NCBI GenBank assembly: GCA_005223185.1
Contig: NJBN01000010.1
Span: 62,001-126,000 of the forward strand
Source of the DNA: a candidate division LCP-89 bacterium B3_LCP
GTDB lineage: Bacteria; Electryoneota; B3-LCP
DNA length: 64,000 nucleotides
Direction of reading: 5' to 3'
The position numbers and the translations under genes were made by a program. Under the pieces are notes generated by a model. The model worked only from the letters and a program-made list of their open reading frames with translations. It was not told the DNA's origin and did not search any database. Positions 49,375 to 61,151 of the stretch are shown in pieces; the first letter of the stretch is position 1; every line of letters begins with the position of its first letter.

Positions 49375-51351
49375 ATGAGACGGTCATTTACAGCATTCAT
49401 CCTTATAGCCATTCTGACCAGCATATCATCAGCGCAGCTTTCCGGTCCCTTGAGTGGTACTTATGGTCCCGGGAGTTTTGCCATTATCGGTGATATTTCC
49501 GTACTGGAGGGTGATTCTCTGGTAATTTTACCGGGTACCAGTTTCCTCTTTGGCAGTTACACATCGCTGAATTTCGAGGTTTACGGTTATCTGTATGCTG
49601 TGGGCACGGAAGCGGACAGCATTTACCTGATGCCGGAAATTCCTGCTTATTCCTGGCATGGCGTGGATTTCAACGATTCCTGCGACGATTCCAGCAGGTT
49701 GGGATACTGCCAGATCAGCGGCAGTAACGCCAGCGGCGTGGACTGTTTCAGTTCCGGACCGACTATCGCTAACTGCTCTATATACGACAATACAGGTAAT
49801 TTTGGTGGGGGACTATACAGCAGCAATGGAGGCAGTCCCAAGATTTATGATTGTGTCGTCAGTGGCAACGCCAGCAACGTTTGCGGCGCAGGCATGTGGG
49901 CCTCATCATCGGATATAGTAATCGATAATTGCATTTTCACCGGCAACAATGCGGGCAATTCTGCTGGTGGGATTTACTGTTACCAGTCTTCCGCGCTAAT
50001 CACCAACTGTACGGTAACTGAAAACACATCCACAGCCGGTGCGGGAGGGATCTTCTGTCGTGGCACGAATCAAGTCATTTCCAATTGTACTATATCAGGT
50101 AATTCCACAGAAACCATTGGCGGAGGGATATGCTGCAATAACGCCACTACGGTGATCGATCACTGCACAATAACCGATAATTACGCGGGAATCGCCGGTG
50201 GTGGGATAGAGGCTTACATCTCCACGCCAACGATTGAGAACTGTACTATAAGTGGAAACATGACACCAGGCGCTGGCGGTGGTATAGAGAGTTACGATTC
50301 CAGTCCGATAATCATCAACACCATCGTGGAAGGAAACTTCGGTCAGGGTGGTATATACTTCTTCAATGGATTGGGCGCTGATGTCACTTACTGCGACTTC
50401 AATGATAACGAAGGTGGAGATTTCATCGGCTACTATTTACCGGAGCTGGGTCAAATCACTGCGGTCAACGCTAACGGTGATTCTTGCGATATGTTCTGCA
50501 ATATCTTCGAAGATCCTGTGTTTTATGCAACATCCGGTGATTCGGCATATTTTCTAAATCCCGATTCACCCTGTATAGACGCGGGTGATCCTGATCCTCA
50601 ATATACCGATCCTGACGGAACCGTTGCAGACATCGGTGCTCACTATTATCACCAGGAGAGCACTTCACCGATAACCATCACGCTCACTCCCTACAACCCA
50701 CCGATTACAATCCCTGCTGCTGGCGGAAGTTTAGATTACAATATAGGCTTAAGCAACAACGAACCTGCAGCGCAGAATTTCGATCTATGGATTATGGTGA
50801 TATTACCTAACGGAACTCAGTATGGTCCAGTATTGGGACCGGTGGATCTGACTCTCGATGGTAATACTTCAGTTGCTCGCGACCGCAACCAGGTCGTTCC
50901 TGGCAATGCTCCTGAAGGGACTTATACTTATGAAGGCCGGGTGGGAATTTACCCGGACATCGTGTGGGATACAGACAGCTTCCCATTTGAGAAGCTGGGA
51001 ACAGACTTCAGCGGAAATGCCACTGGCTGGTTCAACAGCGGGGAGGAATTCCATTCAATCGAGGAGACATATACAGAAGCGAACCCGGACGATCTGCCTC
51101 TGTTATCAGCCTATCCTAATCCCTTCAATCTATCCACAGTATTTGGCTTTACTCTACGGCAGGATGCCTATATCGAACTATCGCTTTTCGATATAGCGGG
51201 CAATCTCGTTTGCACAGTTGAGGAGGGTAATTTTCTACAGGGATACCATGAGATCAGCTTTGATGCCACTGACTTATCATCAGGGATTTATGTAAGCAGA
51301 TTAAGGGCTGAAAATACCTGTATCAGTAGCAGGGTGATCTTGATAAAGTGA
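49375..51351 (+). CDS. Secreted parallel beta-helix protein with T9SS sorting domain (no in-frame TGA)
   Basis: A 658-residue exported protein with a signal peptide (MRRSFTAFILIAILTSISSA). A right-handed beta-helix covers about 80-310, with repeats such as NCTVTENTSTAGAGGIFCRG, NCTISGNSTETIGGGICCNN and NCTISGNMTPGAGGGIESYD. The SPCIDAGDPDPQYTDPDGTVADIGA segment is seen near 400, an Ig-like module follows, and the T9SS sorting domain closes the protein (YPNPFNLSTVFGFTL...GIYVSRLRAEN...VILIK). It is paralogous to the three TGA-containing genes downstream, but at the equivalent point it reads straight through (GQGGIYFF, codons GGT GGT ATA TAC). Its own stop is TGA. Surface role unknown. Confidence 0.88.
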   Translation: MRRSFTAFILIAILTSISSAQLSGPLSGTYGPGSFAIIGDISVLEGDSLVILPGTSFLFGSYTSLNFEVYGYLYAVGTEADSIYLMPEIPAYSWHGVDFNDSCDDSSRLGYCQISGSNASGVDCFSSGPTIANCSIYDNTGNFGGGLYSSNGGSPKIYDCVVSGNASNVCGAGMWASSSDIVIDNCIFTGNNAGNSAGGIYCYQSSALITNCTVTENTSTAGAGGIFCRGTNQVISNCTISGNSTETIGGGICCNNATTVIDHCTITDNYAGIAGGGIEAYISTPTIENCTISGNMTPGAGGGIESYDSSPIIINTIVEGNFGQGGIYFFNGLGADVTYCDFNDNEGGDFIGYYLPELGQITAVNANGDSCDMFCNIFEDPVFYATSGDSAYFLNPDSPCIDAGDPDPQYTDPDGTVADIGAHYYHQESTSPITITLTPYNPPITIPAAGGSLDYNIGLSNNEPAAQNFDLWIMVILPNGTQYGPVLGPVDLTLDGNTSVARDRNQVVPGNAPEGTYTYEGRVGIYPDIVWDTDSFPFEKLGTDFSGNATGWFNSGEEFHSIEETYTEANPDDLPLLSAYPNPFNLSTVFGFTLRQDAYIELSLFDIAGNLVCTVEEGNFLQGYHEISFDATDLSSGIYVSRLRAENTCISSRVILIK

Positions 51352-51422
51352 GATATTTAGTTATATTACTGATCCTATTAGATTTATTAACTTGAGAAAT
51401 CCGGGTGAATTTAAAATAGTGC

Positions 51423-51451
51423 TTGACAAATTGCGATTTTTTTATTATATT
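51423..51451 (+). promoter_or_regulatory. Promoter of TGA-containing gene 1
   Basis: TTGACA at 51423-51428, exact 17-base spacer, TATATT at 51446-51451; consensus-grade. Confidence 0.8.
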
Positions 51452-51511
51452 AGTTATGATATAAAAGTTGTGCGAAGCTAATAAACCAATCATAGCGAAC
51501 GGAGGTTATCC

Positions 51512-53071
51512 ATGAAGAAAGTCTTAATGCTAACGCTTGCATTAACGTTTCTGTCTCTCACCGCATATGGAGCAACACTGTTAGTGCCGTCTCAATATAC
51601 CACGATTCAGGCGGCGATAAATGCTTCCAGTGATGGAGATACAGTTTTGGTAGCAAGCGGAACCTACACGGGTGAAGGTAACAGGAACCTCGATTTCTGG
51701 GGACGTGCCATTGTGGTGATGTCCGAAAACGGCCCGCTGAACACCGATATTATCTGTGATAATAGCGGCCGAGGGCTTTATTTCCATTCAGGTGAAACCA
51801 GCTCTTCTGAGTTCCAGGGCTTCACGATTGCAGGCGGGAGTTCAGCCTATGGTGGTGGTATAAATATCACCAATGCCAGTCCGTACATCCACCACTGCAT
51901 AATCTGGAATAATTCCAGTGCCAACAGCTACGGTGGCGGTGTATATATCACCAATGGAAGCCCCATTATCGAGCACTGTACCATCTCAGGTAACTCCTCC
52001 AAGTACGGTGGTGGTGTTTATGCTGCTGCCTCGAATATGGAGTTCAATTCGAATATCGTGTCTAATAACACGGCATCTGGTTGAGGCAGCCTCTGCAGTG
52101 GGATCTACTGCGCTTCTGGAAGTCCAACCATAACTTACAACGACATCAACAACACTGGTGGCAATTTCTACGGTGGCGCCGTTCCTGCAGGAGCTGGCAC
52201 CATAACCACCACTAACTACAACGGCGATCCCTGTGATCAATACTTTAACATCTTCATGGATCCTGCTTTCATCGGAGTCAGTGGCGATTTCCGGCTGTCC
52301 GAAAATTCACCGTGCATCGACGCCGGTGATCCGGCATTGCCAAATGACCCGGACAATACCATCAACGACCAGGGAGCCGTTTACTTCTTAGCACCTTGCG
52401 TTCAGTGTACTACTACCCCTGAAAATCCGCCAATCTTCATTCCTGCTACCGGTGGAAGTTTCAATTTTACCATAGAGCTCGAAAATATCTGCGACAGCTT
52501 AGTAGTCGTTGACGTCTGGACGGACGTCACGCTTCCCAACGGATCTCCCTATGGTCCGATAATTCTACGTACTGGAATGTCTCTGCCGGTTGGTACACTT
52601 ATCACCAGAGACCTCACTCAGGATGTTCCTGCAGCAGCGCCTTCAGGTTACTATACCTACAGGTTCGCTGCGGGCACCTACCCGAGTGACGTAATTTCCG
52701 ATGATACCTTCAACTTCGGAAAGGTAGGGAATGACGGCGTCTCCGGACCTGGTGGTGAATGGATGCTTTCCGGATGGGAAGAAGATTTAGTGCAGACAGT
52801 GGCACCGTCTGATTACGGTCTATCGTCTGCTTATCCGAATCCCTTCAATCCCGAAACCAAATTGACATTCACCTTGCCACAAGCCGGTGAAGTTTCGCTG
52901 TCAGTTTATGACCTCTCAGGTCGCGAAGTAGCCACGCTCTACGACGGTTACTATCCTTCCGGAAGTCATGAAGCGATTTTCAACGCACAAGGCTTGACCA
53001 GCGGTGTTTATTTCATCCGCTTAGCAACCGGTGATTTCCAGCAGACACGGAAGTTGATGCTGCTGAAGTAG
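51512..53071 (+). CDS. Secreted beta-helix T9SS protein with in-frame TGA at codon 191 (candidate selenoprotein 1)
   Basis: Read as one gene of 520 codons if TGA at 52082-52084 is decoded. GGAGG precedes the ATG and a signal peptide opens the protein (MKKVLMLTLALTFLSLTAYGA). A beta-helix follows (VPSQYTTIQAAINASSDGDTVLVASGTYTG ... GGGVYITNGSPIIEHCTISGN). After NTASG comes the TGA, then in the same frame GSLCSGIYCASGSPTITYND, SPCIDAGDPALPNDPDNT, an Ig-like module and the sorting domain (YPNPFNPETKLTFTL ... GVYFIRLATGDFQQTRKLMLLK), ending in TAG. If TGA were a stop, the 190-residue product would lack the sorting domain and the second half would have no start site. Two paralogues share the TGA position. 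Confidence 0.8.
52082..52084 (+). other. In-frame TGA, candidate selenocysteine codon 1
   Basis: Context GCA TCT GGT TGA GGC AGC. It is identical in placement to 53859 and 59880; the downstream frame is open for 328 codons. Confidence 0.65.
52094..52112 (+). promoter_or_regulatory. SECIS-like hairpin 1
   Basis: TGCAGTGGGATCTACTGCG: stem TGCAGT / ACTGCG (five Watson-Crick pairs and one T-G), 7-base loop GGGATCT. The loop starts 15 bases after the TGA and opens with G, as in bacterial SECIS elements. Confidence 0.6.
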
Positions 53072-53102
53072 GGTAGAAAACAGAGAATAGGAGACAGAAA
53101 TT

Positions 53103-53133
53103 GGGGCTGTCCTGAAGAGGTCAGCCTCTTTTA
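53103..53133 (+). terminator. Terminator of TGA-containing gene 1
   Basis: GGGGCTG / CAGCCTC stem followed by TTTTATT. The same stem recurs after the other two TGA genes. Confidence 0.8.
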
Positions 53134-53224
53134 TTATCCCGGCAGAAGTTCGGATGTATTTCAGGCAGCTTTTTCACTTATATTCTAAAGAGCCCTCCTT
53201 TCTATGATGCAATTAAGAATATTG

Positions 53225-53253
53225 TTGACTTTGAATTGAAATGGGGTTACCTT
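53225..53253 (+). promoter_or_regulatory. Promoter of TGA-containing gene 2
   Basis: TTGACT at 53225-53230, 17-base spacer, TACCTT at 53248-53253; the -10 is weaker than its relatives. Confidence 0.55.
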
Positions 53254-53294
53254 ATCATGGATAGGGTAGAACTTTACACATGGGGAGTTAGAGA

Positions 53295-54779
53295 ATGAAA
53301 AAAATAATCATAGTAGTGATGGTTCTCGCTTTAGTAGCTACGAGCGCTACTGCCACGGTTCTTTCCGTTCCTGATTCTTATTCTACCATACAAGCAGGAA
53401 TAAACGCTGCCAACGAAGGGGACACGGTTATAGTAGCCGATGGCGTTTATGAGGGGACTGGAAACTGCGCAATCAACTATTACGGCAAATCCATCGTGGT
53501 TATGTCAGAAAACGGACCTGATGACTGCATTATCACTTGCGGTGGTCAAGCGCAGGGTTTTATTTTCATTTCCGGTGAGACGAATGTTGCCGTCCTTCAA
53601 GGATTTACGGTAACCAGCGGTTCAGCGATCAATGGCGGTGGGATTCACATAGCTAATTCAAGTCCCACAATTATGCGCTGTATTTTCTGGAATAACAACG
53701 CTGGTAATGGTGGCGGTGTTTACGTGAACAGTGGAGACCCGCGATTCATCAACTGTACTATCTGCCAGAATTCGGCTACTAGTGGCGGCGCTATCTATCT
53801 GGTGAATTCAGATATGGTAATAAATAGCTGCATTATAGCTCAGAATTCGGCATCCGGTTGAGGCAGCCAATGCAGTGGGATCTACTGCGTATCCGGAAAC
53901 CCAACCATCACCTACAATGACATAGACAACAGCGGCGGTAACTTCTATGGAGCCAGCATACCGCCGGGTGCAGGCACCATCACCACCACCAACAATAATG
54001 GCGATCCATGCGATCAATACTTCAATATTTTCCTGAATCCCGAATTTGAGGGTGGAACCAGCACTTTCGCTCTGGCGACCACGTCTCCCTGCAGGGATGC
54101 TGGACATCCTCAACTGCCACTTGATCCCGATGCCACCATCGCGGATATCGGCGCACTTTACTATCTTCCATCTGCAGTTGTAGGTACATCCACTATCCAG
54201 CATTTGTTCGGTGCGGTAACCGTGGGACAGGATTTGACCCTACCGCTGACCATCTACAATTACGGCGAACTGGAGCTGGTTATCTACGATGTATTTACCA
54301 GCGATCCCTGTTACACTACCGATTACAATGAAGCAGATAGCCTTGTTGCAGCCGGGGATAGTCTGGGAATCAATGTAACGTTCACACCAACTGAAGCGGG
54401 GCCGTATATCGAGACCCTCACCATCGAAAACAACGATGAAACGGTTGAGGTGGGATTACTGGGCATAGGTGAAGGTTCTGCAGGTATCACTCCGGTAGAA
54501 GTTGATAACCAGCCGGATAGATTTGCACTTTATCCACCTTACCCCAATCCCTTCAATCCGGAGACTACCATCAGTTACTCATTACCGATGGCGGGAATGG
54601 TAAACCTGTCCGTGTACGATATTTCAGGCAGCAGAGTTGCCAATCTGGTCAATGGCTGGCGCCTTGTGGGAACACACGAGCTAACTTTCGATGCATCAAA
54701 ATTGTCTGATGGTGTGTATATCGCCAGGCTCATCGTTGGTGATTTCCAGCAGACACGGAAGTTGATGTTGGTGAAGTAA
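53295..54779 (+). CDS. Secreted beta-helix T9SS protein with in-frame TGA at codon 189 (candidate selenoprotein 2)
   Basis: 495 codons if TGA at 53859-53861 is decoded. It has a signal peptide (MKKIIIVVMVLALVATSATA) and a beta-helix (VPDSYSTIQAGINAANEGDTVIVADGVYEGTGN ... GGGVYVNSGDPRFINCTICQN). The TGA follows QNSASG, and in frame after it comes GSQCSGIYCVSGNPTITYND. The C-terminal half differs from genes 1 and 3: an ASH-like module (STIQHLFGAVTVGQDLTLPLTIYNYGELELVIYDV) replaces the Ig-like one. The sorting domain then follows (YPNPFNPETTISYSL ... GVYIARLIVGDFQQTRKLMLVK), ending in TAA. That the TGA site is kept while the rest has diverged argues against a shared recent nonsense mutation. Confidence 0.8.
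53859..53861 (+). other. In-frame TGA, candidate selenocysteine codon 2
   Basis: Context GCA TCC GGT TGA GGC AGC; 305 open codons follow in the same frame. Confidence 0.65.
53871..53889 (+). promoter_or_regulatory. SECIS-like hairpin 2
   Basis: The same 19 bases as at 52094-52112, at the same distance from the TGA. Confidence 0.6.
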
Positions 54780-54810
54780 TTGCAAGATACAAGTTGTATT
54801 TCATGAATTA

Positions 54811-54844
54811 GAGGCTGTCCTGAAAAGGTCAGCCTCTTTTTTTT
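54811..54844 (+). terminator. Terminator of TGA-containing gene 2
   Basis: GAGGCTG / CAGCCTC perfect 7-bp stem and eight T residues. Confidence 0.9.
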
Positions 54845-54890
54845 ATGCGAAAGGGAGATGTAAAAAACTGCAAAATGTGAAAAATATTAC

Positions 54891-54919
54891 TTGACATACG
54901 CTTAAAAATTCCTTATTTT
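54891..54919 (+). promoter_or_regulatory. Promoter of the HTH/Cys-cluster regulator gene
   Basis: TTGACA at 54891-54896, 17-base spacer, TATTTT at 54914-54919; the ATG follows about 60 bases later. Confidence 0.75.
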
Positions 54920-54979
54920 ACATAAAACACATAAAATCCATAATATCACTATAAACCAGAAAGCCCTCTCTCTAAAACT

Positions 54980-55738
54980 ATGAGTGAATTTCTCACAACT
55001 GGAAAAGCTGCTGCACTTTGTTCCGTAACACCGGATACCGTGCTCAAATGGGTGAAGGCGGGCAAGATCCCTGCCAAACGCACTGCCGGCGGACACTGCC
55101 GCATTCGGAGGGGGGATTTATTCGCGCTTCTCAAGCAGATGGATGATCAGCAGCTATCAGTTATTGAAGATGATCGCCAGTTTAAGTTTTGCTGGGAATT
55201 TTACTCTGAAACGGAAGAGATCCAGGCTGAATGTAGTCAGTGCATCGTGTACAGGTCGCGTGCGCATCGGTGCTATGAAATGAGTCAACTTCCTTATGAG
55301 AACGGACACGCAAAACTTCACTGCCAGGAATCTTGTGAAAATTGTGGCTACTATCATCTTGTAAGATGGCAGAATCAGAATATCCTCGTAATCACGGAAC
55401 AGCATTCATTACAAACAGAGTTGGAAGATGGTACCAGCCTAAAACAGTATAACCTTTGCTTCACGGACAGCGAGTATAAATGCTCCATGCTGATGGAAGA
55501 CTATCGTCCCGACTATATAATCTTAGATTGTTCGATAGGATCAGGTAGAGTCTGGCACTTTGTACGGAATATTGCAGCAGATCCTCGCATCCCGTTCGTC
55601 AAGATTGTATTAGTTGGGGAAGGGTATGAATTCCCTCAGGATTGTGAGAAAGAGATATTTGCTCAGGTTGAAAGCCCATTAACCAGAGTAACATTAATGA
55701 AGCTTTTAGGAGCTTCGAATCAGAATTCCTACGATTGA
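54980..55738 (+). CDS. MerR/excisionase-type HTH protein with cysteine cluster and receiver-like domain
   Basis: A 252-residue protein. Residues 1-50 (LTTGKAAALCSVTPDTVLKWVKAGKIPAKRTAGGHCRI) are a HTH_17/MerR-like DNA-binding domain. Residues about 70-130 hold eight cysteines (CWEFYSETEEIQAECSQCIVY...HRCYEM...LHCQESCENCGYYHL), a likely metal or Fe-S site. Residues about 135-245 look like a receiver fold with an aspartate in DYIILDCSIG and a KIVLVGEGYEF strand. The domain set suggests a redox- or metal-sensing regulator. It precedes the DsrC/DsrMK-like cluster and probably controls it; that is inference from position. Confidence 0.75.
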   Translation: MSEFLTTGKAAALCSVTPDTVLKWVKAGKIPAKRTAGGHCRIRRGDLFALLKQMDDQQLSVIEDDRQFKFCWEFYSETEEIQAECSQCIVYRSRAHRCYEMSQLPYENGHAKLHCQESCENCGYYHLVRWQNQNILVITEQHSLQTELEDGTSLKQYNLCFTDSEYKCSMLMEDYRPDYIILDCSIGSGRVWHFVRNIAADPRIPFVKIVLVGEGYEFPQDCEKEIFAQVESPLTRVTLMKLLGASNQNSYD

Positions 55739-56072
55739 TATACAGTAATGGCATAGGAAGATCACAAGCCAAATGTGAGGAGTCAGTACTGGTAGAATAG
55801 AGTCAGGAGGGTATATAGAGAAGCCCGACGGGTTTGCTGGAGCCACCAACCTCCCGTCGAGCTATGGTGCAGTTCATCAGGGTTCCGAACTCTGTTCGGG
55901 ATACCCTGCTTCACCGCACTTTAATGTACAAAAAAGCAGGTTCTGAAGTCAAGCTTTAATCGTATTAATACCCTCCTCATTACCTTTAAGTCCTATAAAT
56001 GCACGTGTGGTGGACACCAATCCCAGGATAGCTATATACCACAAAATCCTTAGTAAAAAGTTAGGAGGAGAA
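55739..56072 (+). other. Structured untranslated leader upstream of the DsrC-like gene
   Basis: A 330-base gap with no credible gene. It contains two sizeable hairpins at 55823-55908 and ends in a strong ribosome site (AGGAGGAG) for the DsrC-like gene. Confidence 0.6.
55823..55908 (+). ncRNA. Candidate structured RNA or leader element
   Basis: Hairpin 1 is GCCCGACGGG / CCCGTCGAGC (10 positions, one mismatch) around GCTGG...CCACC. Hairpin 2 is CAGGGT / ACCCTG, with inner CGAAC-TCT-GTTCG, and may extend through GGTG / CACC. No T-tract follows. It matches no riboswitch I recognise. Confidence 0.35.
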
Positions 56073-56384
56073 ATGGACACCGCTGACAATCAGAACAATC
56101 AAGAGACCATTGATGGTTACGTAAAAGAGATGTCCAATTGGAGTCGCGAGCTGGCCAAAGAGCTTGCCGCCAGGAATGATATTGGTCCTCTTACAGATGA
56201 TCACTGGAAAGTGATTGAACATATCAAGGAATACTATCAGGATTACCATCAGGGACCACCAATCCTCAAACTGTGTAGAGACACGGGATTTACCAGGAAA
56301 TATATCTGCGAACTATTTCCTTGCGGCTATGTTCGTGGCGCGTTCAGATTGGCTGGACTACCCAGACCTGCGGGCTGCATCTAA
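56073..56384 (+). CDS. DsrC/TusE-family protein with only the C-terminal cysteine
   Basis: A 103-residue DsrC-like sulfur carrier: GPLTDDHWKVIEHIKEYYQDYHQGPPI, then LFPCGYVRGAFRLAGLPRPAGCI. True DsrC has two conserved cysteines 11 residues apart on a flexible C-terminal arm. Here the penultimate Cys102 (CysA) is present but the partner position is Phe91 (GAF instead of GAC). Another cysteine, C84, lies in FPCG. The start is ATG 56073 with AGGAGGAG six bases upstream; an upstream in-frame GTG/ATG lacks support. It is first in a cluster with DsrM-, DsrK- and tandem DsrC-like genes. Confidence 0.88.
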   Translation: MDTADNQNNQETIDGYVKEMSNWSRELAKELAARNDIGPLTDDHWKVIEHIKEYYQDYHQGPPILKLCRDTGFTRKYICELFPCGYVRGAFRLAGLPRPAGCI

Positions 56385-56465
56385 GTTGATAACAATTGTG
56401 ATTTGAGTAATTCAGTATAGGCTATGGATGAAATCGTAGCCGTATATAAATGAAAGGAATGAATC

Positions 56466-57167
56466 TTGAGTAACCTAATCGGATTGATACTACCCTTCAT
56501 CACGGTGCTTATTTTCGTGATCGGAATGGGATACAGGTTTTATATCTGGACAAAAACACCCCAACCGGGAAAGATGACCCTTTTCCCCACGCCAACTCCA
56601 GGCGGTGGAACCTTCATAAGCATAATTAAGGAATCGTTCTTCTTTCCGGGACTCTTCAAGGGTGATAGATCGCTGTGGATTGCTGCCTGGGTTTTTCATG
56701 CTTCCCTGGCATTGATCATCTTAGGGCATCTGCGTGTGTTTTCAGGATTCTTCGATCGAATTCTGATCAATATGGGCGTTGACGTTGACTTGATGAGCTC
56801 CACGGGTGGGGGTGCGGCGGGGATTCTCATCCTGATAACCGCGATCTGGTTGTTGCTGAGAAGGTTCGCTTTAAGGCGGGTCAGAGAGATCTCCAATGCC
56901 TCCGACTTCCTGGCGCTCCTCTTAGTTTTGGCGATTATTTTTACCGGCAATTCGATGAGATTCGGGGAACACTTTGATCTCGAGATCACCAGAAATTACT
57001 TCGCTCATCTGTTTACGTTTTCCTTCGCCGAAATGACGCTACCTCAGAGTGGTATATTCTGGACTCATTTCTTCTTAGTCCAGTTGCTTATAATGTACAT
57101 TCCCTTCAGCAAGATTCTGCATTTCGGAGGGATTTTCTTCACACAGTCGTTAATCCAGAAATCATAG
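56466..57167 (+). CDS. DsrM/NarI-like membrane cytochrome b subunit
   Basis: A 233-residue integral membrane protein with about five hydrophobic helices and histidines placed in helices (WVFHASLALIILGHLRVFSG; RNYFAHLFTF; WTHFFLVQLL), as in the NarI/DsrM haem b family that takes electrons from the quinone pool. It is shorter than typical DsrM (about 330). The start is TTG 56466 after AAAGGAA; the nearby ATG runs into a stop after four codons. It should form a complex with the DsrK-like protein encoded 15 bases downstream and deliver or accept electrons for DsrC-type disulfides. Confidence 0.85.
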   Translation: MSNLIGLILPFITVLIFVIGMGYRFYIWTKTPQPGKMTLFPTPTPGGGTFISIIKESFFFPGLFKGDRSLWIAAWVFHASLALIILGHLRVFSGFFDRILINMGVDVDLMSSTGGGAAGILILITAIWLLLRRFALRRVREISNASDFLALLLVLAIIFTGNSMRFGEHFDLEITRNYFAHLFTFSFAEMTLPQSGIFWTHFFLVQLLIMYIPFSKILHFGGIFFTQSLIQKS

Positions 57168-57182
57168 AGAGGGAATCTAACA

Positions 57183-58532
57183 GTGTCAGACGAAAATACT
57201 ATATCACACGAGAAAGTCCGTGAAGAAGTTATCAACGCTATCAAGGCGATTGATAACGGGCCGCAAGTTCTCAAATTATACATGGAGATGTGCGCCAGAT
57301 GCGGAACTTGTGCTGAGCAGTGTCCTGTTTACTATGGCGAACCCACCAAGGAACGCAACCCGGTGCTTCGCTCCGATCTCATTCGCAGCACCTTCAAGAA
57401 ACACACCACAATTGCAGGTAAGCTTTTAGGCGCTCTGGATGGAGCGGGTGACTTCGATGGCGATATGGAAAAGTGGGTTACCCAGTTCTACGAATGCACA
57501 GGCTGTCGACGTTGCGCCACGTTCTGCCCTTTCGGGATCGATAACTCGGTTATCACGCGGAAAGGTCGCGCCATCGCCGATAAACTGGGACTGACACCCG
57601 ACACCATGAAAAGCGTCGTCAAGACGTCTCTGGAAACCCACAATACCGACGGCGCTTCTCCGGAAGCTTTCAAATCTGCAATCGATTTTCTCGAAGAAGA
57701 GATGAAGGACGAGCACGGGATCGACATCAAGATTCCCGTCGATGTAGAAGGCGCTGAATTCTTCTACGTCCCACCATCGGGCGACGTGTTGGTCAATCCT
57801 GAAGCCACTACTGGCATAGCCAAGGTGTTCTACGTACTGGGGATGCAGGACAACTGGACCATGAGTTCGAAGTGCTTCGATGGCGCAAATTACGGTCTCT
57901 TCACCGGCAATGATACTGACATGAAAGCCGATAATAAACCTTATGTAGATGAGGCAATAAGCCTTGGTTCCAAGTATATGTTCATGGGTGAGTGCGGTCA
58001 TGCGTACAGAATTATGAAGATGATGATGGAGAAGGGAAAATGGTGGGGCGATCTTCCCTTCAAGGTTGTCAACTGCATGGAATGGACCGCAGACCAGATC
58101 GAAGCGGGTCGGCTGGAATTCGATAAAAGCAAGAACCCGATGCCGGTCACCTATCACGACCCCTGCAACTTTGGGAGGAGTTGCGGGATTGTCGAAGACC
58201 CGCGAGTAATCCTCAAAGCTACTTGCCAGGATTTCAGGGAGATGTATCCGAACCGTGGTGAAAACTGGTGCTGCGGAGGTGGCGGCGGGCTCTCGGCGAT
58301 GGATGACATCCACGATTTCAGAATGAATGTGTCGGGTAGAAAAAAGATGGAACAGGTTAAAGACACCGGAGCAAAATATGTTGCTACAGCATGTTCCAAC
58401 TGTAAGCGGCAGTTCATGCAGCTAATTGAGTATCATAAAGCTGACTTCGCCGTGGGCGGCGTCCACGATATGCTCTCCAGAGCGATCATGATTAATGGAA
58501 AAGCTGCCGAACGCATTGACTACGAATCGTAG
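57183..58532 (+). CDS. DsrK/HdrD-like iron-sulfur reductase subunit
   Basis: A 449-residue protein with two [4Fe-4S] ferredoxin motifs, CARCGTCAEQCPVYYGE (about 37-53) and CTGCRRCATFCPFGID (about 105-120). Two CCG-type cysteine regions follow, one around CNFGRSCG...NWCCGGGGG and a final CSNCKRQF, the site of the unusual non-cubane cluster that handles disulfides in HdrB/D and DsrK. It probably exchanges electrons between the DsrM-like cytochrome and DsrC-like proteins encoded on both sides. The start is GTG with GAGAGGGAA upstream. No dsrAB sulfite reductase genes occur in the window. Confidence 0.9.
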   Translation: MSDENTISHEKVREEVINAIKAIDNGPQVLKLYMEMCARCGTCAEQCPVYYGEPTKERNPVLRSDLIRSTFKKHTTIAGKLLGALDGAGDFDGDMEKWVTQFYECTGCRRCATFCPFGIDNSVITRKGRAIADKLGLTPDTMKSVVKTSLETHNTDGASPEAFKSAIDFLEEEMKDEHGIDIKIPVDVEGAEFFYVPPSGDVLVNPEATTGIAKVFYVLGMQDNWTMSSKCFDGANYGLFTGNDTDMKADNKPYVDEAISLGSKYMFMGECGHAYRIMKMMMEKGKWWGDLPFKVVNCMEWTADQIEAGRLEFDKSKNPMPVTYHDPCNFGRSCGIVEDPRVILKATCQDFREMYPNRGENWCCGGGGGLSAMDDIHDFRMNVSGRKKMEQVKDTGAKYVATACSNCKRQFMQLIEYHKADFAVGGVHDMLSRAIMINGKAAERIDYES

Positions 58533-58574
58533 GTTCATGCTGACTTAATACGAACATAATACCGGGGAATAAAC

Positions 58575-59237
58575 TTGAGTAATATTGAACCTGAAACAGT
58601 AACTTTTGCAGGAAAAATCTACTCTCTCGATCAGCGGGGATTTCTAAAATCCCCGGAACAGTGGGATGAGGATTTTGCTGAAGGTATGGCGGAAGTGCAG
58701 GAGATCTACGGCGGTTTGACAGAGAAGCACTGGGATTTGATACATTACATCAGAAGGAAATTCACTGAAGAGGAGACAATCCCCGTTGTGGTTTTAGCCT
58801 GCGCCGATAACAATCTAAAGCTAAGCGATCTGAGGTTCCTCTTTCCCACCGGTTATCATCGCGGCGCTTGCAGGATTGCGGGGATAAACTACGACTTCAT
58901 GTATAAGACCAATTTCTGGCTCACGTATGAAACCACTACCCTACAAAAAGAGGAATATAAGCTGACCCATCGTGGGTTTCTGGAAGATTTCAGCAAGTGG
59001 GATGAGCGTTTCGCACAGATTATCATCCGTGAATGGAAACTGCCCGGAGGACTTACAGACAGGCATCGGGAGATCATCAGTTATCTGCGTGATTTTTATG
59101 AAAGAATGAAGAACATCCCCACGTTTTTCGAAATGTGCAAAGCCAATAATTTAGACGTAGATGAGTTCAAAGAGCTATTCCCCGAAGGATACCGGCGGGG
59201 AGCATGCCGAATAGCGGGACTGCCGTTTTTCGGGTGA
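58575..59237 (+). CDS. Tandem DsrC-domain protein with only the upstream cysteine in each domain
   Basis: A 220-residue protein made of two DsrC/TusE domains (about 1-108 and 128-220), each with the DRGF(L)..P..W(D/E)...A motif (DQRGFLKSPEQWDEDFAEGMA; THRGFLEDFSKWDERFAQ), a LT(E/D)(K/R)HW helix and the LFPxGYxRGACRIAG arm. Both domains keep the CysB equivalent (Cys99, Cys211). Neither has CysA: domain 1 continues into a linker and domain 2 stops nine residues after Cys211. This is the mirror image of the single-domain protein encoded upstream. The start is TTG after GGGGAA. Cytoplasmic. Confidence 0.88.
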   Translation: MSNIEPETVTFAGKIYSLDQRGFLKSPEQWDEDFAEGMAEVQEIYGGLTEKHWDLIHYIRRKFTEEETIPVVVLACADNNLKLSDLRFLFPTGYHRGACRIAGINYDFMYKTNFWLTYETTTLQKEEYKLTHRGFLEDFSKWDERFAQIIIREWKLPGGLTDRHREIISYLRDFYERMKNIPTFFEMCKANNLDVDEFKELFPEGYRRGACRIAGLPFFG

Positions 59238-59309
59238 TTCGACTGCCAATGTATATCATTAGAAAATTATGCTAAATCCACTAAAATCAAGATGAAAGGA
59301 AAGTTAATT

Positions 59310-60890
59310 ATGGTTAGGTTATCTTCAGCGCTGCTCGCTGTCATGCTTCTGGTTCTGGCTGCAAGCGGTACAACACTACTGGTTCCCAGCCAATATGGCA
59401 CTATCCAGGCCGGCATTGACGCTGCCAGCAATGGCGATACCGTTTTGGTAGCAGATGGAACTTATACTGGAACTGGAAATAAAGACTTGGATTTCGGCGG
59501 TCGGATTATCGTCGTCATGTCCGAAAACGGACCGGATGTTTGCATCATCGACTGCGAAAACGACGGTCGTGGATTCTACTTTCACTCCGGTGAAACCGCA
59601 GATGCAGTTATTTACGGCTTCATGATCCGTTATGGTTATGCCAGCAACGGTGGTGGAATCAATGTTACAGATTCCAGTCCCACTATCGATCATTGCATTG
59701 TCTGGGATTGTGCCAATGGTGGTACTGCCGGCGGCGGTATCTACTTGAACAACGGTCATTCACTGATCGTCCACTGCACCGTTAATGATAACTTCTCCGG
59801 TCATGGAGGAGGAATTTACGCCATAAACTCGAATATGACGGTTAGTAGCTGCATCATTTCCGATAACTATTCAACTGGTTGAGGCTCCAATTGCAGTGGG
59901 ATCTACTGCGTTTCGGGTAATCAAACAGTCGAATATACCTGCCTTTACAATTCCGGTGGCAACTTCTGGGGTTCAGCCATCCCTGCAGGAGCCGGACAAA
60001 TCACAACCACTAACAACAATGGCGATCCCTGCGACGTCTATTACAACATCTTCCTGGATGAGCAGTTTGTAGGAGCTGGTGATTTTCATCTGCAGCCTAA
60101 TTCACCCTGCATCGATGCCGGTGATCTGACGCATCTGCCGGACCCGGATGCCACCATCTGCGAAATGGGTGCTCTATACTATCCACAATCAGCGCCAGAC
60201 TTGACTTTAACAATGACACCTCTGGGTACAACTAATTTCCCGCCAACTGGAGGTCTCTTAGAGTACAATATCGCCGCTCAGAATAACGGAACTTCGACGG
60301 AAATCGTGGACATCTGGGTGGACGTATCATTACCTACAGGCGGTCTGTACGGACCTGTCCTGGGTCCAGTCAGCGATTTCACCATGGCAGGCGGCTTTTC
60401 CGCTGATAGAGATCGCGAATTGACCGTTCCCGGTGCAGCGCCTCCTGGCCCATATTCGCTCAATGGATACTTAGGTGAATACGATCCAGTCAGCCCGATT
60501 ATCTATGCTGAAGATAGCTTCAACTTCAATAAAGCTTCCTTCGGTGATGGTGGAGAATGGATCAGCAATTGGTTTGTCGATAGCGGCGAATCGTTCGAGG
60601 AGCTGGCTGAAACTGTCAACTCAGTCGAGGTGTACGGTCTGATTCAATGCTACCCCAATCCGTTCAATCCGGAGACCCAACTGAACTTCAGTTTACCGGA
60701 AAATGGGGAAATATCGTTAATCGTTTACGATATTCAGGGTCGTGAAGTTGCTACGCTTTACGATGGCTGGTATCAAGCCGGAAGCCACAAAGCAACTTTC
60801 AGCGGAGCCGCTCTGCCCACCGGAGTTTACTTCGCCCGCTTAACTGCAGGCAGCGTCCAGCAGACACAAAAGCTGGTCCTGATGAAGTAG
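59310..60890 (+). CDS. Secreted beta-helix T9SS protein with in-frame TGA at codon 191 (candidate selenoprotein 3)
   Basis: 527 codons if TGA at 59880-59882 is decoded. I start at ATG 59310 because AAAGGA lies in front of it, giving MVRLSSALLAVMLLVLAASG as signal peptide and placing TGA at codon 191, as in gene 1; an ATG six codons earlier lacks a ribosome site. The beta-helix (VPSQYGTIQAGIDAASNGDTVLVADGTYTGTGN ... GGGIYLNNGHSLIVHCTVND) leads to NYSTG, TGA, and in frame GSNCSGIYCVSGNQTVEYTC, SPCIDAGDLTHLPDPDAT, an Ig-like module and the sorting domain (YPNPFNPETQLNFSL ... GVYFARLTAGSVQQTQKLVLMK). The final stop is TAG. It lies just after the Dsr-like cluster. Confidence 0.8.
59880..59882 (+). 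other. In-frame TGA, candidate selenocysteine codon 3
   Basis: Context TCA ACT GGT TGA GGC TCC; 335 open codons follow. Confidence 0.65.
59892..59910 (+). promoter_or_regulatory. SECIS-like hairpin 3
   Basis: The same 19 bases as in genes 1 and 2, although the codons just before (TCC AAT) and after (GTT TCG GGT) differ. Confidence 0.6.
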
Positions 60891-60921
60891 GGACTATCAG
60901 CTAAGATATGTATACTAAAAA

Positions 60922-60952
60922 GGGGCTGTCCAACACGGGGCAGCCTCTTTTT
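60922..60952 (+). terminator. Terminator of TGA-containing gene 3
   Basis: GGGGCTG / CAGCCTC stem followed by TTTTT. Confidence 0.85.
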
Positions 60953-61151
60953 AGTAACGAGGTTGTTCTTAAAAGGGTCACTCTGTTCGTAGGACTCGTA
61001 CGGAGAGTCCGCCTAAGGCGGATAAACCCGTTGAAAACGAAGCGAAGAGTATCATGTCGGGGTCGGGGGTGACCCCGAATACGGAAATAATTGGAGCTTG
61101 GTCGAAGTAAAAAAGCTGAACCGCAGATTCCACAGATTTCGTAGATTAGCT

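Follow-up and report, generated by a model that had tools for sequence, protein, structure and literature searches.

Three genes in a 64,000-nucleotide stretch of the genome of candidate division LCP-89 bacterium B3_LCP (assembly GCA_005223185.1, contig NJBN01000010.1, positions 62,001 to 126,000; the whole stretch is called the window below) each carry an internal in-frame TGA. We find that this codon is very probably decoded as selenocysteine (Sec), which would make genes 1–3 a new selenoprotein family; the strength of this statement applies to Sec decoding of genes 1–3, and the redox chemistry of their products is weighed separately. In the proposed mechanism, an in-frame hairpin whose apical loop, GAU, lies 17 or 20 nucleotides (nt) past the internal UGA would direct its decoding by SelB and tRNA-Sec(UCA). 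The complete protein would then leave the cell and be sorted to its surface via a C-terminal tail of the type IX secretion system (T9SS), and Sec, in a loop between beta-helix rungs, may pair with a following cysteine (Cys) in a reversible selenenylsulfide, performing a redox step at the surface. The genes and their elements are listed here, with the hairpins described as resembling selenocysteine insertion sequence (SECIS) elements.

51512..53071, + strand: gene 1, beta-helix protein predicted to contain Sec and ending in a T9SS sorting tail, 519 amino acids (aa) read through the TGA
52082..52084, + strand: gene 1 in-frame TGA, predicted Sec codon 191, same column in relatives
52095..52111, + strand: gene 1 GAU-loop hairpin (SECIS-like), GCAGTGG-GAT-CTACTGC
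52832..53059, + strand: gene 1 T9SS type A sorting domain (Por_Secre_tail), domain-model match
53295..54779, + strand: gene 2, architecture as gene 1 plus a HYDIN/choice-of-anchor-D domain ahead of the tail, 494 aa
53859..53861, + strand: gene 2 in-frame TGA, predicted Sec codon 189
53872..53888, + strand: gene 2 GAU-loop hairpin
54540..54767, + strand: gene 2 T9SS sorting domain
59310..60890, + strand: gene 3, architecture as gene 1, 526 aa; alternative ATG possible at 59292
59880..59882, + strand: gene 3 in-frame TGA, predicted Sec codon 191
59893..59909, + strand: gene 3 GAU-loop hairpin
60651..60878, + strand: gene 3 T9SS sorting domain
49375..51351, + strand: adjacent beta-helix paralogue without the TGA loop, a natural comparison; its normal stop is TGA

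The sequence-only reading from which this analysis started had placed the TGA at codons 191, 189 and 191, with frames open for 305–335 more codons to a TAG or TAA. These coordinates all hold: the frames continue for 328, 305 and 335 codons in genes 1, 2 and 3, ending at TAG 53069, TAA 54777 and TAG 60888. The motif U-G-S-x-C-S-G-I-Y-C, with its U-x3-C pair, is exact in the three genes, while the context given for the codon, (A/T)SG-TGA-G-S, fits genes 1 and 2 (A-S-G) but not gene 3 (S-T-G). Judged by eye, a hydrophobic stretch resembling a signal peptide opens each protein; the beta-helix part follows, and a Por_Secre_tail/TIGR04183 sorting domain scores above its curated cut-off downstream of the TGA in all three. 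The HYDIN/choice-of-anchor-D domain occurs in gene 2 only, as expected from the earlier remark that its downstream part differs. The proportion of nonsynonymous differences (pN, about 0.3) is far below that of synonymous differences (pS, about 0.75) in the parts that precede and follow the TGA, and the downstream part is therefore under protein-level selection.

The internal TGA is not peculiar to these genes. The genome comprises 18 contigs totaling 3,794,239 bases, and its contig 4 carries a fourth paralogue with this internal TGA, which also terminates at a TGA. Homologues from four related genera, and from another family of the phylum, keep the codon too, which agrees with the initial argument that a shared chance nonsense mutation is unlikely. 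TGA-bearing genes of the same kind are present in seven related genomes (G001–G005, G010 and G015). We also find a second form, type II, in which the Cys follows at U-x2-C rather than at the U-x3-C of type I (e.g., T-U-G-S-C-G-G-G-G-I-R-C), on contigs 2, 4, 7, 13, 16 and 18. The three genes first described are thus real, but the extent of the family was understated: at least 14 TGA-bearing beta-helix genes are indicated in the genome, including one at contig 16:55017 with a broken upstream frame, and site counts from these searches are lower bounds. The loop that carries the TGA is absent from most other beta-helix paralogues in the genome.

A further sign of recoding lies just after the codon. 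When 24 sites are aligned from the TGA onward, one common element emerges, a stem capped by a GAU loop that starts 17 or 20 nt past the TGA. All seven pairs of the stem show changes on both sides and 95.2% of cells are paired, values that were reached in 0 of 500 shuffles; partners slid out of register pair at only 33–61%. We note that the hairpin was first noticed by eye on sites picked for their TGA and later tested on others, and that the relatives in these comparisons are not independent. In 18 sites outside the model, pairing is again 95.2% and the covariation score 0.786 versus 0.26; two of the five measures (double-change pairs and pair types) are not clearly above shuffles, because the set is small and partly composed of close relatives. 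Comparing ten type I genes at positions with a shared residue, we find the same codon in 221 of 222 cases for the six hairpin codons (+4 to +9 after the TGA); elsewhere the proportion is about 0.40, and the best of 292 other windows of codons reaches 0.645. Single-sequence folding of 47-nt stretches gives weak z-scores, and the evidence for the hairpin is comparative.

Scans with a covariance model of the hairpin point in the same direction. Over the genome it yields 15 matches with E < 0.02, a lower bound as 150 of 1189 candidates were scored, and all lie in frame, either in a redoxin or in beta-helix-class genes with a TGA; three of the 15 were not used in building the model and belong to the same kind of protein with an in-frame TGA. 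Two model-building sites (a VCBS gene and the first redoxin, see below) are not among these matches. Within the window, the strong matches are the three genes and the rest are at noise level; among its 2515 TGA triplets, a GAU stem of at least four Watson-Crick pairs occurs three times at distance 17 and never at distance 20. Published bacterial SECIS criteria, in our own implementation, are passed by 27 of 38 sites versus 3.5% of control TGAs.

The genome also encodes the machinery that Sec decoding needs, and does so largely twice. The sequence-only reading had named selA, selB, selD and tRNA-Sec as the genes to look for, and all are present: two tRNA-Sec genes with UCA anticodons (C18:55476 and C13:102551, C denoting contig), two SelA that are 43% identical to one another (C7:557388 and C6:6896), two SelB that are 38% identical (C16:189863 and C18:232578), and one SelD, itself of the Sec type with its own UGA. 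SelD (L049, L057) has its UGA followed by conserved sequence without a GAU hairpin, to which a GG-type loop fits. At least two hairpin types, the GAU type and the other type of SelD, therefore seem to coexist.

Further support comes from proteins outside the beta-helix class. Two AhpC/TSA-type redoxins on contig 18 (HFWKSN-U-RQC and FFEYG-U-SFC) have the same GAU hairpin after a TGA, with Sec in place of the first Cys of CxxC. The hairpin likewise follows the TGA in a VCBS-repeat family, YG-U-C-x-x-A-x-P-x-I-V-D-W (YA-U-C in one member), which we consider a candidate second selenoprotein family. In four genera, represented by this genome, G002, G004 and G005, VCBS genes with a TGA come immediately after tRNA-Sec, and G004 and G005 have two TGA copies each. 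The VCBS-repeat TGA genes, with their positions in the collected loci, are:

L031, 831, - strand
L278, 1158, - strand
L283, 4015 and 5654, + strand
L284, 1087 and 2749, - strand

Of the features by which a bacterial selenoprotein is recognized, we thus find an in-frame UGA with a conserved frame beyond it, a SECIS-like downstream hairpin with compensatory changes after each TGA (albeit with an atypical GAU loop), and SelA, SelB, SelD and tRNA-Sec(UCA) in the same genome. Cys-coded homologues at the Sec position are found for the two redoxins that share the hairpin and not for the beta-helix family; such homologues are customary support for selenoprotein status, not its definition. The Sec reading of the original candidate family is in this way supported by machinery, hairpin and conserved TGA together.

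The fold of the products is that of a right-handed beta-helix, as indicated by the domain model (predicted local distance difference test, pLDDT, 87.8; predicted template modeling score, pTM, 0.89), by matches in the PDB to pectate lyase, pectin methylesterase and PL6 beta-helices (best E ~1e-3), and by PF13229, found in type II members. A sequence search found no match in the PDB, and a full-length model matches Ig-like domains only. In the predicted structure, Sec is in a loop inserted between rungs of the helix. The C-terminal type A sorting domain is that of T9SS cargo, and the product is predicted from it to be exported and sorted to the surface.

What Sec does in this loop is less certain. 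A Cys follows Sec in nearly all members (U-x3-C in type I, U-x2-C in type II), and the chance that the two bond reversibly as a selenenylsulfide, for use in a surface redox step, seems to us about even. A structural or metal-binding role, in which Sec is inserted but staples a surface scaffold through its bond to Cys, or binds a soft metal there, rather than taking part in catalysis, is nearly as likely and falls somewhat short of an even chance. In fact, the matches of the beta-helix domain are to generic beta-helix enzymes only and no known active site was recognized through them, two sites in the genome lack a Cys at U+3 or U+4 (U-G-P-N and U-N-T-S), and type I members have further invariant Cys (C82, C129, C195, C241 and C268), all of which would suit such a scaffold. 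Sec is costly, however, and is usually retained where its reactivity matters. Moreover, U-x2-C is the commonest redox motif among known selenoproteins (PMC13188914).

Several observations weigh against Sec decoding itself. All genomes compared are metagenome bins; 11 of the 38 sites fall outside the published SECIS energy limit; the GAU loop differs from the usual GG/GU loop of bacterial SECIS elements; and no Rfam match for the hairpin occurs within 51000–61000. In addition, no Cys-coded homologue at the Sec position was found with a type II profile in 386 genomes or in a motif scan of the collected loci, nor did that scan find a sense-coded version of the motif in a beta-helix context. The earlier proposal of a homologue search at this column has yielded Sec/TGA homologues but no Cys or other sense-coded form. 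With the profile, built from 17 type II loops, the 33 best matches (E up to 1.3e-30) each have exactly one TGA, and one further TGA match at 1.5e-22 is the partial contig 16 copy, giving 34 close type II homologues with TGA. Sense-coded matches begin at 2.5e-25, and those inspected in full (L305–L307) are without the U-x2-C insert.

The lack of a homologue showing Cys/Sec exchange at the beta-helix site is also the point in favor of ordinary stop readthrough, or of a suppressor tRNA inserting a standard amino acid, either of which would give short and long forms without selenium. A hairpin after a stop codon can indeed promote readthrough as well. We nevertheless regard this explanation as improbable: two redoxins with Sec for the first Cys of CxxC have this hairpin after their UGA, the Sec machinery is duplicated in the genome, and no homologue has a sense codon for a standard amino acid, which is unexpected if one were inserted. 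UGA is, furthermore, the commonest stop (it closes 19 of the window's 40 other genes) and terminates the fourth paralogue, and global reassignment of UGA was rejected on these grounds. Decaying pseudogenes or a TGA arising from assembly or sequencing error, to which the broken upstream frame of the contig 16:55017 copy lends some color, are refuted for genes 1–3 by the recurrence of this TGA in several genera whose genomes were assembled independently, by pN far below pS on either side of it and by the strong RNA-level constraint on the hairpin, and homologues do not end at the TGA but continue through the same downstream domains.

Returning to the Sec decoding we favor, the duplicated machinery has a distinct phylogenetic pattern. 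Among 193 genomes searched, two tRNA-Sec genes occur in exactly this genome (G000) and G001–G005, while the other 97 positives have one. The tRNA-Sec types, a and b, track SelB clades a and b: SelB-b and the lone SelB of family f2 are sister groups, SelB-a groups with the single SelBs of f4, f5 and f8, and throughout the six genera of one family the types of SelB and tRNA-Sec have been inherited together. In G003, SelB-b is accompanied by a contig-end fragment 70% identical to SelB-a, and G010 and G015 (bins of 77–79% completeness) have both SelBs and one tRNA-Sec each. The selD–tRNA-Sec neighborhood is retained in six of six genomes of the family. Of the 39 genomes of the phylum, exactly the eight with two SelBs have strong GAU hairpins (E < 1e-4), an association that is a correlation over few lineages. 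We tentatively suggest, as a possibility we rate as rather doubtful, that the family retains two old, co-inherited Sec systems, a with one SelB and tRNA-Sec and b with another, and that one of the systems is specialized for GAU hairpins and serves an enlarged set of surface selenoproteins, with SelD on a different hairpin. Assigning the GAU hairpin to SelB-a or SelB-b was not possible, as a-only and b-only relatives have no strong GAU site and a TA06 genome, which belongs to another phylum, has a SelB of another clade. This TA06 genome has one SelB, one tRNA-Sec and two GAU-type genes, and two systems are therefore not strictly needed. The two are type II TGA beta-helix genes with the hairpin (L078 2663, + strand; L288 2272, - strand), and may reflect horizontal transfer or independent use.

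An earlier case of a bacterium with two Sec operons is Photobacterium profundum 3TCK (PMC5330540), which similarly has two non-identical tRNA-Sec genes; here, the six genera of one family retain two tRNA-Sec types alongside two SelB clades. Prokaryotic UxxC selenoproteins (Prx-like thiol:disulfide oxidoreductase, thioredoxin, DsbG-like; PMC13188914, Table 1) resemble the present family in the UGA, the downstream hairpin and a Cys at +3 (type II here) or +4 (type I here), but they have a thioredoxin-like fold and Cys homologues, in contrast to a right-handed beta-helix with a T9SS tail for which no Cys homologue was found. The UGSC-containing selenoprotein NF041046 shares the letters U-G-S-C with several type II sites, yet neither this nor other selenoprotein models match type II proteins. 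The bacterial SECIS consensus has a loop G followed by G or U (bSECIS; PMC13188914, Fig 2A), whereas the loop here is GAU, at a distance fixed at 17 or 20 nt. Fold and sorting tail are those of T9SS-sorted beta-helix surface proteins of the FCB group (PF13229 and TIGR03804 with Por_Secre_tail TIGR04183), from which the family differs in its Sec-bearing loop, missing in most ordinary paralogues of the same genome.

Surface-anchored T9SS selenoproteins were unfamiliar to the sequence-only reading, and the 2026 catalogue of 119 prokaryotic selenoprotein families indeed has no beta-helix or T9SS-sorted entry (PMC13188914). A 2025 deep-Sep scan of this very assembly, GCA_005223185.1, reported four known and no new selenoproteins (PMC12013277), to which our analysis would add about 14. 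Nearly all known selenoproteins have a Cys homologue, and the deep-Sep authors state that selenoproteins without one may be filtered out (PMC12013277); the family was likely missed because the method filters by Cys homologues, which it seems to lack. If true, our findings would extend Sec to surface proteins with sorting tails, provide a sharp hairpin model for finding further members and, through a lineage that has two Sec systems, make SelB/SECIS specificity directly testable.

Some loci differ from the pattern described above. The type II TGA copy at contig 16:55017 of this genome (L143 1541, - strand) has a broken upstream frame, perhaps through gene decay or an assembly fault. A surface protein of an LCP-89 relative (L081 1845, - strand) has an in-frame TGA (WCSG-U-GGGSW) without a GAU hairpin and is a possible further selenoprotein. 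Between genes 2 and 3 (56007–59237) lie genes for DsrC, a NarI-like protein, an HdrD/DsrK-like protein and a double DsrC. A tie to sulfur metabolism, suggested by genes 1–3 flanking this cluster, was dropped, since no such neighbors were found beside the TGA genes of relatives (flanks of up to 4 kb) or beside the fourth copy. The fused double DsrC is unusual in its own right.

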